NCBI RefSeq assembly: GCF_004364345.1
Contig: NZ_SOCA01000001.1
Location: 620,001-684,000, forward strand
DNA: 64,000 nt
Reading direction: 5' to 3'
DNA from: Prosthecobacter fusiformis
GTDB lineage: Bacteria; Verrucomicrobiota; Verrucomicrobiia; Verrucomicrobiales; Verrucomicrobiaceae
Shown here: piece by piece, positions 27,186 through 47,936 of the stretch
Layout: every line of letters starts with the position of its first letter
Numbering within the stretch: the stretch's first letter is position 1
Notes under the pieces: generated by a model
Told to the model about the DNA's origin: nothing
Databases searched by the model: none
The model's input: only the letters and a program-made list of their open reading frames with translations
Position numbers and translations under genes: made by a program

Positions 27186-30100
27186 ATGGCACAGCCCCGG
27201 CCCGTAAGATACCTCATGACCTGGAAGGCCTCCACCACGCTGCTGATTTTGCTGCCCGCACTCCCCTGCGTTGCCGCCAAGATGGAGTTTAACCGTGATA
27301 TCCGCCCCATCCTTTCGGACAAGTGCTTCCATTGCCATGGCTTCGACCCGAAAACCCGCGAGGCAAACCTCCGTCTGGATGAACGCGAGGCCGCAGTCGC
27401 AGATGGGCACATTGTCCCTGGAGATGCGGGCAAAAGCCTCATCATCCAGCGGGTGCTTTCTCATGATTCCGATGAGGCCATGCCACCGCCCGAATCAAAA
27501 CTTGGCCGCCTAACCGAAAGTGAAATCGAAAAACTGAAACAGTGGGTCAATGAAGGAGCCGAATACCAGCAGCACTGGAGCTTCATCGCCCCCGATGCCT
27601 CCCGCCTGCAAGAATGGAAACACCAAGCCCAGTCGTCCGGCGCACACACAGCGATTGATCCACTGGTGAAAAAAGGCTTGGCCGCCCGAGGCCTCGCCCT
27701 GCAACCCCGGGCCGATGCCCACACCCTCATCCGCCGCCTCAGTTTTGATCTCACCGGCCTGCCTCCCACCCCGGAGGAAGTACAGGCTTTTACAGCAAAC
27801 GCCCTTTTCGAGAAAGCCTACGAGGCAGCCATCGACAGGCTCCTTTCTTCCCCAGCTTATGGTGAAAGGATGGCCGTCGATTGGCTGGATGTGGCCAGGT
27901 ATGCAGATAGCTACGGCTTCCAAGTGGACCGCCCGCGCGATGTCTGGATGTGGCGTGATTGGGTCGTCCAGGCATTCAACCGCAACCTGCCCTTTGACCA
28001 GTTCATCACCTGGCAGGTCGCCGGGGACCTTCTCCCCAATGCCACCGATGAACAGATCCTCGCCACCGCATTCAACCGCCTCCATCAGCAGGAGAGCGAA
28101 GGTGGCTCCGTGGAGGAGGAATACCGCATCGAATACGTGGCAGACCGTGTACAGACCTTCGCCACTGCCTTTCTGGGACTCACCTTCGAATGCTCCCGCT
28201 GCCACGACCATAAGTATGATCCCATCAAACAAACGGAATACTATGGCCTCTCCGCCTTCTTCCAAAACATTGATGAAGCCGGGCTGTATTCCTTTTTCAC
28301 CCCCTCCGCACCCACCCCTGCTCTGGCACTCCTAGATCCAGCGCAAAAGGAACAAAAAGCAGCTCTGGAAAAACGAATCATCTCACTGGAGCAGGAACTC
28401 AATGCATCATCTGCCGCCGCCACGAAAACGATCCAATTACAAGATGGAGCCCCCACCTCGCAGGAAGGCCTGATTGCCCACTACACCTTTGACGAAGTGG
28501 AAAAAAACAAACTCGCTGACTCCGCTCCCCCCGCCCAAAATCCTGCCCCGTCTGCAAAAGACAAGCCCGCCCCCGCCCAGACCACCACCGTAAAAGGGGA
28601 AAACAAATTTGTGAACGGCCGGTTAGGCCGCGCCATTGAGTTCACCGGTGATGACCCTGTGGATACCCCCGTGGGAAACTTCCCCAGACATCAGCCCTTC
28701 AGCATCTCCCTCTGGATTCAGACACCCGATGTCAAAGATCGCGCCGTAGTCTTGCACCGCTCCCGCGCTTGGACGGATGCCGCCAGCCGCGGCTATGAAC
28801 TCCTCATTGAAGAAGGCAGGCTGAAGTGGTCCCTCATCCATTTCTGGCCTGGGGATGCCATCTCCATCCGCGCCAGGGATCCCCTGCCCCTCCATACCTG
28901 GGTGCATGTCGTCGTTACCAATGATGGCAGCAGCCGCGCCGCTGGCCTCCGCCTTTATCTCAATGGCCAGCTCGCCACAGTCGATGTTATTCGCGACAAT
29001 CTCACACGCGACATCACCGGTGGCGGCGGTGATCACATCAGCCTCGGCGAACGCTTCCGCGACCGTGGTTTCAAGGGCGGCATCATAGATGACTTGCGGG
29101 TCTATGATCGCGATCTTTCCCGTCCCTACGATGCAGCCACCATCCCCCTTCTTGATGAGCTAAAAGCCGCCCGTGCAGAACTCACCACCTTCTCCTCCGC
29201 CCAAAAGGAAATCATGGTCATGAAGGAGTTGCCCCAGCCCAAAAAAGCCTACGTGCTTCAGCGGGGCGAATACGATAAACGTGGCGAAGAAGCCCCCCCA
29301 GTCACCCCTGCCTTCCTTTCCCCCTTCCCCAAAGAGGCCCCCATGAATCGCCTCGGCCTCGCCCGCTGGCTGACCGACCACACCCACCCCCTGACAGCCC
29401 GCGTCACCGTCAACCGCGTATGGCAAAGTTTGTTCGGCAGAGGTCTTGTGAAGACCAGCGAGGACTTCGGCAGCCAAGGGGAAAAACCCCTTTACCCGGA
29501 CCTGCTGGACTACCTCTCCCTCCGTTTGATCGAAAGCCACTGGGATATCAAGGCCCTCATCAAGGAAATCGTCAGCAGCCAGGTGTATCAGCAGCGCAGC
29601 ATTGCCGATGCCGCCACCATGGCAGATGACCCAGATAACGAATGGCTCGCCCGTGGCCCCCGCTTCCGCCTGCCTGCAGAGATGATCCGGGACAACGCCC
29701 TGGCCAGCGCCGGATTGCTAAAAACACAGCTCGGCGGCCCACCCGTGAACCCTTATGAAATGACGGAGGCCTTCAAGCCGGTGGAAATCGTCAACGACGG
29801 CAGCGTCCACCGCCGCAGTCTCTACACCACCTGGCGCCGCACCAGCCCCCCTCCCGCCATGGTCGCCTTTGATGCCCCCCGCCGTGCCGTTTGCTCCGCC
29901 AAACGCGAGCGTACAGACAGCCCCCTCCAGGCCTTGATCCTCCTCAACGGCACCCAATATGTCGAAGCCGCCCGCATCCTCGGGGAGAAACTCCACACCG
30001 AATCCGCTGGCGATATTAACCACATGATCACTCAGGCATTCATCCGTTGCCTCAGCCGCCCGCCGGATGCGCAGGAAGAAGCCATCTGCACCCACCTTTA

Positions 30101-39083: not shown

Positions 39084-39170
39084 CAAGAAGCACCCCCAAA
39101 ATCACCGTCGGCACCCCCCTATCCCACAACGGCGGCGATGCCCCCCGTCCGCCCCACTAAAACGATTCCC

Positions 39171-39270
<100 letters not shown>

Positions 39271-44816: not shown

Positions 44817-45460
44817 GGGTGAACAGGAATGGCTGGTAGGCGATCGAGGACGGCCTGGACGGCACCTTCGAGGGTAAGGTGGCTATTATCAATGACGACC
44901 GCACCTTCTGGAATCACTAGAGGAGAAGCCTTGCGGGTGGAGTCCAGGCGGTCACGCTCAGCCACCTGATCGGTATGGCCTTGGGCCTGACGGCGGGCAG
45001 CGCGGACTTCCTCGCTGGCATCGATATAAAACTTCAGGGGGCTGTCTGGGAAGACGACGCTGCCGATGTCCCGCCCTTCCATAACCAGAGGGCCGAGGCT
45101 GGAGAGGGCACGCTGATCGGCGACGAGGCGGGCGCGGACTTCCGGCACACGGGCGACGAGGGATACGCCACGGTTTACCGGATCGCTGTTGAGGTCTTCG
45201 GCGGTCAAGCGGCGACCGTTGACGGATACCTGGGTCTGGCCATCGGCGACGGGTGAATCAATGAGTATACCCTCGGCGGTACTGCGGACCGTATCCATGT
45301 CATTGGGGTCTATACCCGTCTGGAGTACGGCCCAGGTCATGGCGCGGTACATGTTGCCGGTATTCACATAGATATACCCCAGGCGTTGGGCGAGTATGCG
45401 GGCGACACTGCTTTTGCCGGAGGCAGCAGGGCCATCAATGGTGATGACGGTATTCATCAT
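44813..45460 (-). CDS. cmk: Cytidylate kinase
   Basis: 215 residues. P-loop GPAASGKSS near residue 10; NTGNMYRAMT binds CMP; MEGRDIGSVVFP and FYIDASEEVRAARR are the LID and NMP regions; ERDRLDSTR completes the active site. Phosphorylates CMP and dCMP with ATP. Overlaps both aroA (upstream) and plsC (downstream) by 4 bp, indicating translational coupling. Confidence 0.96.
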   Translation of the reverse strand: MMNTVITIDGPAASGKSSVARILAQRLGYIYVNTGNMYRAMTWAVLQTGIDPNDMDTVRSTAEGILIDSPVADGQTQVSVNGRRLTAEDLNSDPVNRGVSLVARVPEVRARLVADQRALSSLGPLVMEGRDIGSVVFPDSPLKFYIDASEEVRAARRQAQGHTDQVAERDRLDSTRKASPLVIPEGAVVIDNSHLTLEGAVQAVLDRLPAIPVHP

Positions 45461-46815
45461 TTCAGTTTGCGGGGTGCCCGGGAGATGACGGGGATGGGGT
45501 ATTCGCCATTTTCGTTCTTTTGAAAAAGGGCGAGGTCATGCTCGAAGCCAGGATAGCTGGTGCCGATGCATTCGGAGCCTTCAATGACAGTTTCACCTTC
45601 AGCAAATAGACCGGCGATGGCGAAGGCCATGGCGATGCGGTGGTCGTGATAGGTGGTGATGGTGGCACCTTGCAGCTTGGCACCGCCCTGGATTTCCATC
45701 CCGTCTTCGAATTCCGTGACGGTGACGCCCATGCGGCGGAGGTTTTCAGCGACGGCGGCGATACGGTCCGTTTCTTTAACACGAAGCTCATGAGCATCCT
45801 GGATACGTGTGGTGCCACGGGCGAGCGCGGCGGCGACGGCGAGGATAGGCAGTTCGTCAATAACGTTGGGGATTTCGGCCCCGCCGATGACGGTGGCATT
45901 GAGGTCGCCGCCCTTGACGGTGACGTTACCACGAGGTTCGCCATCGGTGGTTTCCTCGGAATTGTGGATGTGGGCACCCATGCGTAGGAGGACGTTGATG
46001 ACGCCTGTGCGGGTGGGGTTGAGGCCGACATTCTTGAGGGTGATCTGCTGGCCGGGGCTGGCAGCGGCGGCGACCATCCAGAAAGCGGCGCTGGAGATGT
46101 CCCCGGGGACGACAATGTCGGTAGCGCGGGCGGACTGGCCGCCATAGACGGAGATGGCATTGCCTTCTCGGAGCCACTTGATGCCGAAGTGGGACATGAT
46201 GCGCTCCGTGTGGTTGCGAGTGGCGACAGGCTCAATGACCGTGGTTTTGCCAGGGGCAAAGAGGCCTGCCAAAAGGATGGCGGACTTTACCTGGGCGCTG
46301 GCCATGGGCAGAGTGTACGTAATGGCCTGGAGGGAGCCGCCGGTGACCTTGAGCGGGGCGCAGATCTTTTCTCCCTGACCTTCGACTTTCGCACCCATGA
46401 GGCGGAGGGGATCGGCCACGCGTTTCATGGGGCGCTTGGAAAGGGAGGCATCCCCGAACATTTCAGTGGTGAATTCCTGGCCGGCAAGGATGCCGGAGAG
46501 AAGGCGGATGGTGGTGCCGGAGTTTCCGCAGTCCACAGGGCCAGAGGGGGCTTTGAGCTGGGGGCCATTGCCCGTAATGGCGAGCTTGGTCAGGCCGATG
46601 CCGCCGGTTTCTTCGAGAGGATCGACGGTGGCACCCATGGCTTCCATGGCCTTGACTGAGCAGAGGCAATCCTCACTGGGCAGGAAGCCATCAATGATGG
46701 TCGTGCCGGAGGCCATGCCGGCAAACATGGCGGCGCGGTGGCTGATGCTTTTATCCCCTGGAACGGAGATTTCAGTGGGGAAGGATTTGAGCTTTCGGAC
46801 TTTCAGTGTGGCCAT
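45457..46815 (-). CDS. aroA: 3-phosphoshikimate 1-carboxyvinyltransferase (EPSP synthase)
   Basis: 452 residues. PGDKSISHRAAMFAG at the start binds shikimate-3-phosphate and PEP; CGNSGTTIRLLSGIL and KRPMKRVADPLRLMGA follow; ELRVKETDRIAAVAENL and YHDHRIAMAFAIAG are the late signatures. Sixth step of the shikimate pathway. The gene starts 2 bp after tyrA and overlaps cmk, so aromatic synthesis and nucleotide/lipid genes share a transcript. Confidence 0.97.
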   Translation of the reverse strand: MATLKVRKLKSFPTEISVPGDKSISHRAAMFAGMASGTTIIDGFLPSEDCLCSVKAMEAMGATVDPLEETGGIGLTKLAITGNGPQLKAPSGPVDCGNSGTTIRLLSGILAGQEFTTEMFGDASLSKRPMKRVADPLRLMGAKVEGQGEKICAPLKVTGGSLQAITYTLPMASAQVKSAILLAGLFAPGKTTVIEPVATRNHTERIMSHFGIKWLREGNAISVYGGQSARATDIVVPGDISSAAFWMVAAAASPGQQITLKNVGLNPTRTGVINVLLRMGAHIHNSEETTDGEPRGNVTVKGGDLNATVIGGAEIPNVIDELPILAVAAALARGTTRIQDAHELRVKETDRIAAVAENLRRMGVTVTEFEDGMEIQGGAKLQGATITTYHDHRIAMAFAIAGLFAEGETVIEGSECIGTSYPGFEHDLALFQKNENGEYPIPVISRAPRKLK

Positions 46816-46817
46816 GA

Positions 46818-47936
46818 TCAGGAGACGGCCGCCGGGACGGTCCTTCGGAGGGTTTGGGCCTCGGCGAGGAAGCGGCGGAGTTCTTCTTCGTCCGGCTTGC
46901 CGAGGATTTCAAGAAGCTCTGTCAGGGTGGCCGAGGCTGCCTGGAGCTGAGAGAGGAGGGCGGTGCGATTTTCCAGGGCGATGCCTGTCCAGAGACCAGG
47001 GTCGCCACCTGCGACGCGGGTGGTATCACGGAAGCCGTTGGCGACGCAGGAGACAGCAGTGGGGTCGGTGCGGAGGGCGGCCAGGGTGGTGACTGCGGCC
47101 ATCATGTGGGGCAGGTGGGAAATGCGGGCGACTTTTTCGTCGTGCTCGTCCGGGGACATTTCGAGGACGTTGCAGCCGAGGGTTTGCCAGAAGGTACGGA
47201 GGCGGGTGAGGGGGGAAGCGGACGGGGTCGTCCGCGCTCCGGTTGCTTCTGGTGAGGATGCGGACGGGGGCGTCCGAGCTCCGGTTACTTCTGGTGAGGA
47301 TGCGGACGGGGGCGTCCGCGCTCCGGTTACTTCTGGTGGGGAAGCGGACGGGGGCGTCCGCGCTCCGGTTACTTCTGGTGGGGAAGCGGACGGGGGCGTC
47401 CGCGCTCCGGTTACTTCCGGTGAGGAAGCGGACGGGGGCGTCCGCGCTCCGGTTACTTCCGGTGAGGAAGCGGACGGGGGCGTCCGCGCTCCGGGGGTGA
47501 TGAGGCAGGTGGCGTTTTGGAAGAGGGAGGCGCGGGCGGTTTCGATGCCGGCTTTTTCAGATCCGGCCATGGGATGGCTGCCGATGAAGCGGGGGCCGAG
47601 GATGGGGTCGAGAGCGCGGACGACGCTGCCTTTGACGCTGCCAACATCGGTGATCAAGGTATCTGGGGAGAGGTCGGCCATGGCGATCTGCGCGGCCAGG
47701 GCAGGCATGGTCTCTACTGGAGTGCAGAGAATGATGAGGGAGGCCCCGGTGGCTGCGGCGGTGGCATCCGTATAAAACTCAGCCTGGATGCCGCGTGCGA
47801 GAATGGCCTCTTGGGCGGATTCCCGCCGGGCCCAGAGCCGGAGAGAGGAACCCGGTAAACGCTCCTGGATGGCGAGCGCAAGGGAACCCCCGAGAAGGCC
47901 GGGGCCGTAGATGGCGATGGTTGTCTCTGAACTCAC
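46818..47936 (-). CDS. tyrA: Prephenate dehydrogenase with internal tandem repeat
   Basis: 372 residues. The N-terminal NAD-binding loop GPGLLGGSLA starts at residue 11; GSVKG (99-103) and SHPMAGSEKAGI (120-131) line the active site; the C-terminal helical domain (SPDEHDEKVARISHLPH) follows. Between residue ~149 and ~242 six full and one partial copies of a 14-residue unit (GARTPPSASSPEVT) are inserted in a loop that in ordinary TyrA is short. Without the insert the protein would be about 280 residues, the usual length. The repeat stays in frame and all core motifs are kept, so the enzyme is probably active. Confidence 0.92.
   Translation of the reverse strand: MSSETTIAIYGPGLLGGSLALAIQERLPGSSLRLWARRESAQEAILARGIQAEFYTDATAAATGASLIILCTPVETMPALAAQIAMADLSPDTLITDVGSVKGSVVRALDPILGPRFIGSHPMAGSEKAGIETARASLFQNATCLITPGARTPPSASSPEVTGARTPPSASSPEVTGARTPPSASPPEVTGARTPPSASPPEVTGARTPPSASSPEVTGARTPPSASSPEATGARTTPSASPLTRLRTFWQTLGCNVLEMSPDEHDEKVARISHLPHMMAAVTTLAALRTDPTAVSCVANGFRDTTRVAGGDPGLWTGIALENRTALLSQLQAASATLTELLEILGKPDEEELRRFLAEAQTLRRTVPAAVS
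47218..47494. repeat. 42-bp palindrome-bearing tandem repeat inside tyrA
   Basis: Six complete 42-bp units start at 47218, 47260, 47302, 47344, 47386 and 47428; a seventh partial unit starts at 47470. Each begins with GCGGACGGGGGCGTCCGC, an inverted repeat with 7-bp arms and a 4-base loop. Units differ by only a few bases. Length divisible by three keeps tyrA in frame. Confidence 0.95.

Follow-up and report, generated by a model that had tools for sequence, protein, structure and literature searches.

The tyrA gene of Prosthecobacter fusiformis carries, within its reading frame, a tandem array of short palindromes, and the locus raises the question of what these repeats are, how they came to lie in the gene for prephenate dehydrogenase, and whether this gene is an isolated case. 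The array is located in the window (the whole stretch of DNA analysed, 64,000 nt in length), and the features discussed are collected in Table 1. A tandem repeat with a period of 42, 6.7 copies and 96% matches was reported by TRF at nt 47214–47494, and the hairpin GCGGACGNNNNCGTCCGC occurs seven times at nt 47218–47487 when up to 2 mismatches are allowed (six perfect, one with one mismatch), relative to a shuffle expectation of 0.34, and a largest value of 3, over the whole 64-kb window. These two results bear out the initial annotation, which had described six full and one partial 42-bp hairpin units. On the coding strand, each unit consists of a 23-nt palindrome, GGAGCGCGGACGCCCCCGTCCGC, followed by a 19-nt linker. 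The six full units show pairwise differences of only 0 to 4 of 42 nt, with 3 of the 5 variable positions being synonymous. The insert was also correctly described as being in frame, but its length is about 92 residues (149–240) rather than about 94. The copy number is that of one assembly, and since the array is repetitive over about 280 bp, an assembly artefact, with the true array being shorter or longer, has a slight chance of being correct; it is opposed by the distinguishing variants borne by the units and by the presence of a copy at the same site in a separate assembly, that of G057 (see below).

Table 1. Positions of the tyrA features (window coordinates) and of the REP-flanked RAYT on contig C11.
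Feature	Position (nt)	Strand	Remarks
tyrA, prephenate dehydrogenase, 372 aa, holding the in-frame REP array	46818–47936	−	ORF, Pfam, phmmer; AF2 model matches PDB prephenate dehydrogenases
REP array: six 42-bp units (23-bp REP + 19-bp linker) and a seventh REP	47218–47492	−	residues 149–240, GARTPPSASSPEVT repeated
REP 1, GGAGCGCGGACGCCCCCGTCCGC	47470–47492 (unit 47451–47492)	−	DNA hairpin −8.8 kcal/mol, unpaired GGAG foot
REP 2	47428–47450 (unit 47409–47450)	−	unit identical to unit 1
REP 3	47386–47408 (unit 47367–47408)	−	
REP 4	47344–47366 (unit 47325–47366)	−	unit identical to unit 3
REP 5	47302–47324 (unit 47283–47324)	−	
REP 6	47260–47282 (unit 47241–47282)	−	one stem mismatch
REP 7	47218–47240	−	host sequence SPLTRLRTFW directly after
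aroA-like gene (name presumed from the protein)	45457–46815	−	ORF; starts 2 nt past the tyrA stop
RAYT flanked by tyrA-type REPs	C11:29120–29677		REPs at 28899 (+), 29763 (−) and 29795 (−)

The Pfam domains of the protein are PDH_N (residues 19–154) and PDH_C (residues 261–358). When compared by phmmer with a solved TyrA (4wji), residues 5–155 and 243–368 were matched to parts that adjoin in the PDB chain (156 and 158), and an AF2 model (7 sequences, mean pLDDT 75.8) places the insert between a strand (143–148) and a helix (242–252), with residues 160–235 having pLDDT values below 50. The best Foldseek matches of the model are prephenate dehydrogenases. Since its flanks adjoin in 4wji and it falls between a strand and a helix, the insert lies in a loop, as had been proposed initially. 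The 92 extra residues most likely form a floppy surface loop on a TyrA that is predicted to be still active.

The palindrome is not confined to tyrA. At up to one mismatch, the 18-mer hairpin has 56 matches in the 5.83-Mb genome (control 0), and the 23-mer that includes the foot has 62 (reversed control 0; two hairpins are counted in both orientations), rising to 118 at up to three mismatches (control 11). It folds into a 7-bp stem and 4-nt loop with an unpaired GGAG+1 foot. GGAG is found one nt from the stem beside most of the hairpins found by hairpin alone; in the 48 exact copies it is present by construction of the search pattern. The foot of classical REPs is GTAG, and cleavage has been shown for GTAG in other systems, as against GGAG here. 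The three hallmarks of REPs are all seen, these being a short palindrome dispersed in many copies (23 nt, where about 20–40 bp is expected), a conserved tetranucleotide at the 5' foot (GGAG instead of GTAG), and a RAYT gene flanked by inverted REPs. Judged by its sequence, the tyrA hairpin therefore qualifies as a REP element of the RAYT (TnpA-REP, HUH) kind.

The REP has no stop codon in any of its six frames, unlike the full 42-nt tyrA unit, which has stops in two of six, and its three sense frames (GARTPPSA, ERGRPRP and SADALVR) are all present in long ORFs of this genome. REPs occur singly or in arrays, and the other arrays, including some between genes, differ from that of tyrA in linker and period, as expected of local amplification. 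Spacings below 100 nt are divisible by three in 10 of 11 cases classed as genic versus 12 of 24 others (Fisher one-sided p = 0.022, with six correlated tyrA spacings counted). A VWA/BatA-like gene contains three in-frame REPs, and roughly 60 REP residues are missing from its counterparts in 12 of 12 relatives, including G057. In-frame REPs are also present in genes that we take to be HEAT-repeat, DUF4175-like and squalene-cyclase-like. A KAS gene (C3:59318) was not counted as a clean insertion, as its two in-frame REPs sit in a linker of variable length in relatives.

The history of the array can be followed in TyrA matches from 66 genomes (53 of 56 in one search, the own genome included, and 13 of 14 in another). 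Among named TyrA proteins, that of a Phragmitibacter MAG is nearest (57%). By TyrA, the closest relative is G057 (pieces 87 and 91% identical); it reads CLITP-GARTPPSTSK-LLLRLRTFW, and the DNA, GGAGCACGGACGCCCCCGTCCAC, is one decayed REP at the same codon and in the same frame. In the other 64 genomes the flanking matches are no more than 30 nt apart, which leaves no place for an array; the 11 of these that were read residue by residue have short loops, and in the rest a single REP could still hide in the short gap. The 19-nt linker bears no resemblance to the G057 flank. The simplest history suggested by these sequences is one REP insertion before the split from G057, with amplification later; it is also possible that the single copy of G057 is a contraction of a former array. 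The initial reading of a palindromic element amplified in tandem, with a probably recent expansion, is upheld by the near-identity of the units and by the comparison between species, in which the condition named for its refutation, an equal copy number in all close relatives, did not hold.

These data also bear on whether the repeat is an ordinary coding minisatellite, in which slippage of the gene's own sequence gave rise to the 42-bp unit and the hairpin is a coincidence. The units are indeed head-to-tail, near-identical and in frame like those of any VNTR, but the GGAG-footed hairpin also occurs, joined to different linkers, at many unrelated places in the genome, and G057 has one copy at the same codon without a linker repeat. 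On these grounds the minisatellite was ruled out as extremely improbable. A second alternative is that the array is a selected functional insertion, providing allosteric, regulatory or translational speed control of tyrA and the next gene. Seven copies have been kept in frame, and the position of the aroA-like gene (Table 1) puts the array upstream of a probably co-transcribed gene, so that mRNA hairpins could modulate both. Against this, the array is present in this genome alone, which leaves nothing conserved in which to seek selection, the loop is of low confidence in the AF2 model, and comparable arrays exist between genes. A functional role is therefore distinctly unlikely, and the array may well be neutral.

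We consider it highly probable that a REP was inserted into the TyrA loop and then amplified, and that this is one case of REPs and REP-RAYT-REP elements living in frame in host genes of the phylum. This reading is based on the sequence, site and frame of the array, the single copy of G057, the dispersal of the REP, and a RAYT flanked by the same REP. In the proposed mechanism, a 23-nt REP (GGAG foot and hairpin), presumably mobilised by a RAYT of the same genome, would have entered by transposition, in frame, into the loop that joins the last NAD-domain strand to the helix after it; the simplest timing is in an ancestor shared by this species and G057. As the REP is stop-free in six frames, it is tolerable in a loop if its length fits. 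The REP and its 19-nt linker (42 nt, or 14 codons) would then have multiplied in tandem to seven copies in this lineage, probably by slippage or unequal exchange, with each step being frame-neutral. More generally, slippage may multiply REP-only copies whose unit is divisible by three, as in tyrA.

The RAYT flanked by tyrA-type REPs is itself located within a gene. A 669-aa frame (C11:28736–30742) encodes a family 4 glycosyltransferase that encloses a complete RAYT in frame, the Pfam domains being Glyco_transf_4 (29–69), Y1_Tnp (232–311) and Glycos_transf_1 (480–632). Among the RAYT matches listed for this genome (G000), it is the sole one within 5 kb of any of the stronger REP matches listed. 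Glycosyltransferase orthologues were matched in 24 of 24 genomes, four of them outside the alignment; at the site in the 20 aligned genomes of the genus, the RAYT is present in G000 and G011 and absent in 18, including the near relatives G018, G019 and G034. G057 and G056 also have a RAYT at this site. Genome G023 has a lone REP, GGAGCGCCGACGAATCGTCGGC, where G011 has REP-RAYT-REP, suggesting that a REP is either the entry site of the element or what stays after its departure.

Nested RAYTs also occur elsewhere in the order. A RAYT query over 112 genomes spread evenly across it gave at least 150 matches, and among the matches listed there were 32 with frames of at least 500 aa. All 32 were read, some in excerpt, and 26 had host protein on both sides of the RAYT. 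The hosts were LeuRS (9), CarB (4), glycosyltransferase (4), type IIG restriction-modification (2), adenosine deaminase (2), HsdR (2), ClpB (1), MetH (1) and a DUF5107-TPR protein (1); in two of the 26 the frame starts at a contig end, and in two it extends into masked sequence. The other six, comprising four NUDIX cases and two with an unrecognised host, were excluded as N-terminal or uncertain. Beyond that list, nested RAYTs were found in LeuRS of G072 and a Zn-dehydrogenase/Gfo-Idh protein of G009, with partial cases in HsdR of G083 and a MetH-like fragment of G045. A phylum search gave a RAYT match in 45 of 194 genomes. In other classes the hosts were PriA, XseA, mevalonate-PP decarboxylase, HypF and again the same type IIG gene, and a different order within the class contributed ValRS. 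Of 15 long-frame loci read from this search, four (L249, L255, L258, L270) look nested on reading, and five (L244, L251, L256, L265, L269) are not clearly so. Frames at G028:C45, G001:C83 and G023:C5 were dismissed as plain RAYTs or chance frames, and the 890-aa frame listed for G002:C141 was not reproduced, 224 aa being read.

Pfam searches of 21 fusions (E up to 0.001 for part of them, up to 1e-6 for the rest) listed host families on both sides of the RAYT in 16. L140 and L257 have a two-stretch host match with only one stretch listed, in L153 the host families are confined to the C side, and the remaining two, L154 and L156, belong to the NUDIX cases. Four fusions (L132, L150, L252 and L254) had no Y1_Tnp listed at the stricter E of up to 1e-6; HUH motifs are present in these. 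No intein/Hint domain was among the Pfam families listed for the 21 fusions. Inteins are in-frame mobile protein-coding inserts of essential genes, patchy in distribution, with one lineage per site. The nested RAYTs, unlike inteins, lie in variable loops with no Hint domain listed, and splicing would not be expected.

The 33 in-host RAYTs used for tree construction were chosen by the motif NH[VAFI]H, and so contain HUH (NHVH/NHAH) by construction; seven are uncertain or partial (nudix 3, x 2, y 1, and hsdR of G083). The catalytic Tyr is in the expected place in 33 of 33. Three cases missed by the motif search (L132, L150 and L155) have NHVH, NHVH and NHTH, respectively, with the Tyr, and L132 and L150 have lost the NP after it. 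Nested copies thus display the HUH motif and catalytic Tyr of RAYTs. Perfect 7-bp-stem hairpins occur within 200 nt on the left of 28, the right of 26 and both sides of 25 of the 33, relative to 40 of 263 control host windows, so that REP-like flanks are the rule even though eight have no hairpin on one or both sides; the foot is often GTAG, GTGG or GGAG. By simple Nei-Gojobori counts, the three closest pairs with a recognised host have RAYT dN/dS values of 0.133, 0.125 and 0.079 (host parts 0.049–0.204), which, as far as such counts go, shows purifying selection on the nested RAYTs of these pairs. A fourth close pair, of unknown host, has a RAYT value of 0.194, and five more distant pairs are near saturation. 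Since RAYT dS is about 1.4 to 2 times host dS in the three pairs, these values fall short of proving strict co-inheritance.

In a tree built from 55 RAYTs, the labels of the seven host groups change 7 times, where 6 is the lowest number possible and shuffling gives a mean of 16.0 (0 of 200 as low), and in-host versus free-standing likewise requires 7 (shuffled 17.6, 0 of 500 as low); the free-standing rows, 22 in number, were sampled by convenience, and near-copies favour such label tests. The glycosyltransferase (84/89), type IIG, HsdR and adenosine deaminase RAYTs each form one group, the last three spanning different families, and the label changes are 3 for LeuRS, 2 for CarB and 2 for NUDIX.

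The most frequent host, LeuRS, was examined with a LeuRS-RAYT query against 60 chosen genomes (a biased sample, as known carriers were put in), of which 59 gave a match. In nine genomes a single match runs across the insertion, and in G072 two overlapping matches lie in one 1299-aa frame; among the matches listed, none of the 10 carriers has a second LeuRS. The insert is found between HDERDFEFAKKFELPIVQVV and AVNSGFLDG, a position inside the editing domain or at its end (in L130 the editing domain is at 257–400 and Y1_Tnp at 520–595). As the assemblies are separate, chimerism is unlikely. G050 is outside these counts because it has an inserted partial leuS and an uninserted leuS on another contig; of its two leuS contigs (L170, L171), one carries part of an insertion and the other an empty site, from contamination or two alleles. 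Extra residues without a RAYT are seen in leuS of G090 (L182) and G085 (L183) at the RAYT site, and further on in G037 (L180) and G092 (L178); they may be remnants, or inserts that consist of REPs alone.

A host tree built from 27 hand-chosen LeuRS rows (10 inserted, 17 empty) requires 9 insertion-label changes, at least 7 of them forced by well-supported branches, and the label is not clustered (423 of 500 shuffles as low). From the two trees, insertion into the LeuRS loop has been gained or lost many times, and the RAYT lineages largely follow the host gene. Part of this pattern can be produced by any one of three processes: homing-like transfer, repeated targeting, or old insertions followed by many losses.

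What the nested RAYTs represent is more tentative. One reading, to which we give slightly less than an even chance, is that a class of REP-RAYT elements in Verrucomicrobiota has adopted a gene-internal niche, in which it would be read through unspliced with LeuRS, ValRS, CarB, ClpB, MetH or PriA. RAYT lineages would be bound to one host gene and site, would spread between species in a homing-like manner, and would gain free expression and protection from deletion, while REP-only copies, such as those in tyrA, would be their non-autonomous offspring. The stop-free frames of REP and RAYT would let an element, presumably arriving by transposition, land in loops of essential genes, where those that survived were in frame. 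Residence there would provide RAYT expression and protection; it is likewise presumed that host and RAYT are made as a single polypeptide and that either half is active. The nested RAYTs could instead be domesticated host domains that give LeuRS, CarB and others a new function, as might be argued from the low dN/dS of the three close pairs and from the retention of Tyr in the 33 in-host rows and of HUH and Tyr in three nested or fused cases outside them. However, their distribution is patchy, with the seven or more changes on the LeuRS tree, the hosts are unrelated to each other, and flanking hairpins have been kept on both sides in 25 of 33, all of which makes domestication unlikely.

The initial annotation had compared the tyrA element to the palindromic elements of Rickettsia. 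We know of no RAYT link for those elements. That a mobile palindromic element resides in the gene is confirmed, but it is a REP of the RAYT kind, and membership of the Rickettsia family was rejected on length (23 nt versus about 150 bp), organism and RAYT link. The analogy is that the Rickettsia elements (Ogata 2000, 2002, cited in PMC10969869), at about 150 bp, are also palindromic and lie in frame in many genes.

Closer precedents exist among REPs. According to the available portions of PMC3733652, intragenic GTAG/CGTC REPs are known in ORFs, in frame and often as dimers or groups, Opitutus terrae (Verrucomicrobia) having the highest number of the GTAG type, and REP clusters encode 43 to 82 aa in Thauera and R. 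conorii. Like these, the tyrA array consists of footed palindromes in frame within an ORF; unlike these, it has a GGAG foot, 92 aa, a regular 42-bp period and a single-copy state in the closest relative. As intragenic and clustered REPs are already published, the tyrA array alone adds a member. In the same portions, no host ORF is described as enclosing a whole RAYT gene. REPtrons, as described in the parts available of PMC2817692, PMC8266576 and PMC6006769, have an HUH-Tyr transposase flanked by inverted REPs, as do the nested elements, but are separate genes, whereas here the whole unit forms one open frame with the host gene. In PMC6006769, in-frame REPs are noted inside tnpA-REP itself, and proteins that were too long were dropped as fusions or errors. 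No report of whole RAYT genes nested in host genes was found among openly licensed PMC papers.

The tyrA series shows mobile DNA becoming protein sequence, from a short loop in most relatives, through one REP in G057, to seven here. The nested RAYTs point to a lifestyle unreported in the literature searched, of motif-intact transposases in loops of essential enzymes, with a lineage-to-host-gene link like that of inteins and no splicing domain listed. They make it possible to ask whether LeuRS-RAYT is one working protein and whether the RAYT homes, which bears on how REPs spread, and they advise caution against discarding long RAYT-fusion proteins as annotation errors.

Other repeats were observed in the same genome. 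In L013 (C2:71900–75900), units about 97 bp apart combine a GCCGACG/CGTCGGC hairpin with other repeats. Two unlinked arrays (L022:2540–2815 and L024:2066–2330) have nearly the same 35–36-bp unit, linker included, so that an array may have been copied between loci. Heptamer tandem repeats, CCACCAA (×9) and ACTGAGC (×5.4), occur in the window (nt 39170–39270) and in L022 (C12:1–20000), and ACTGAGC-type heptamers on contig C12 also adjoin REPs.
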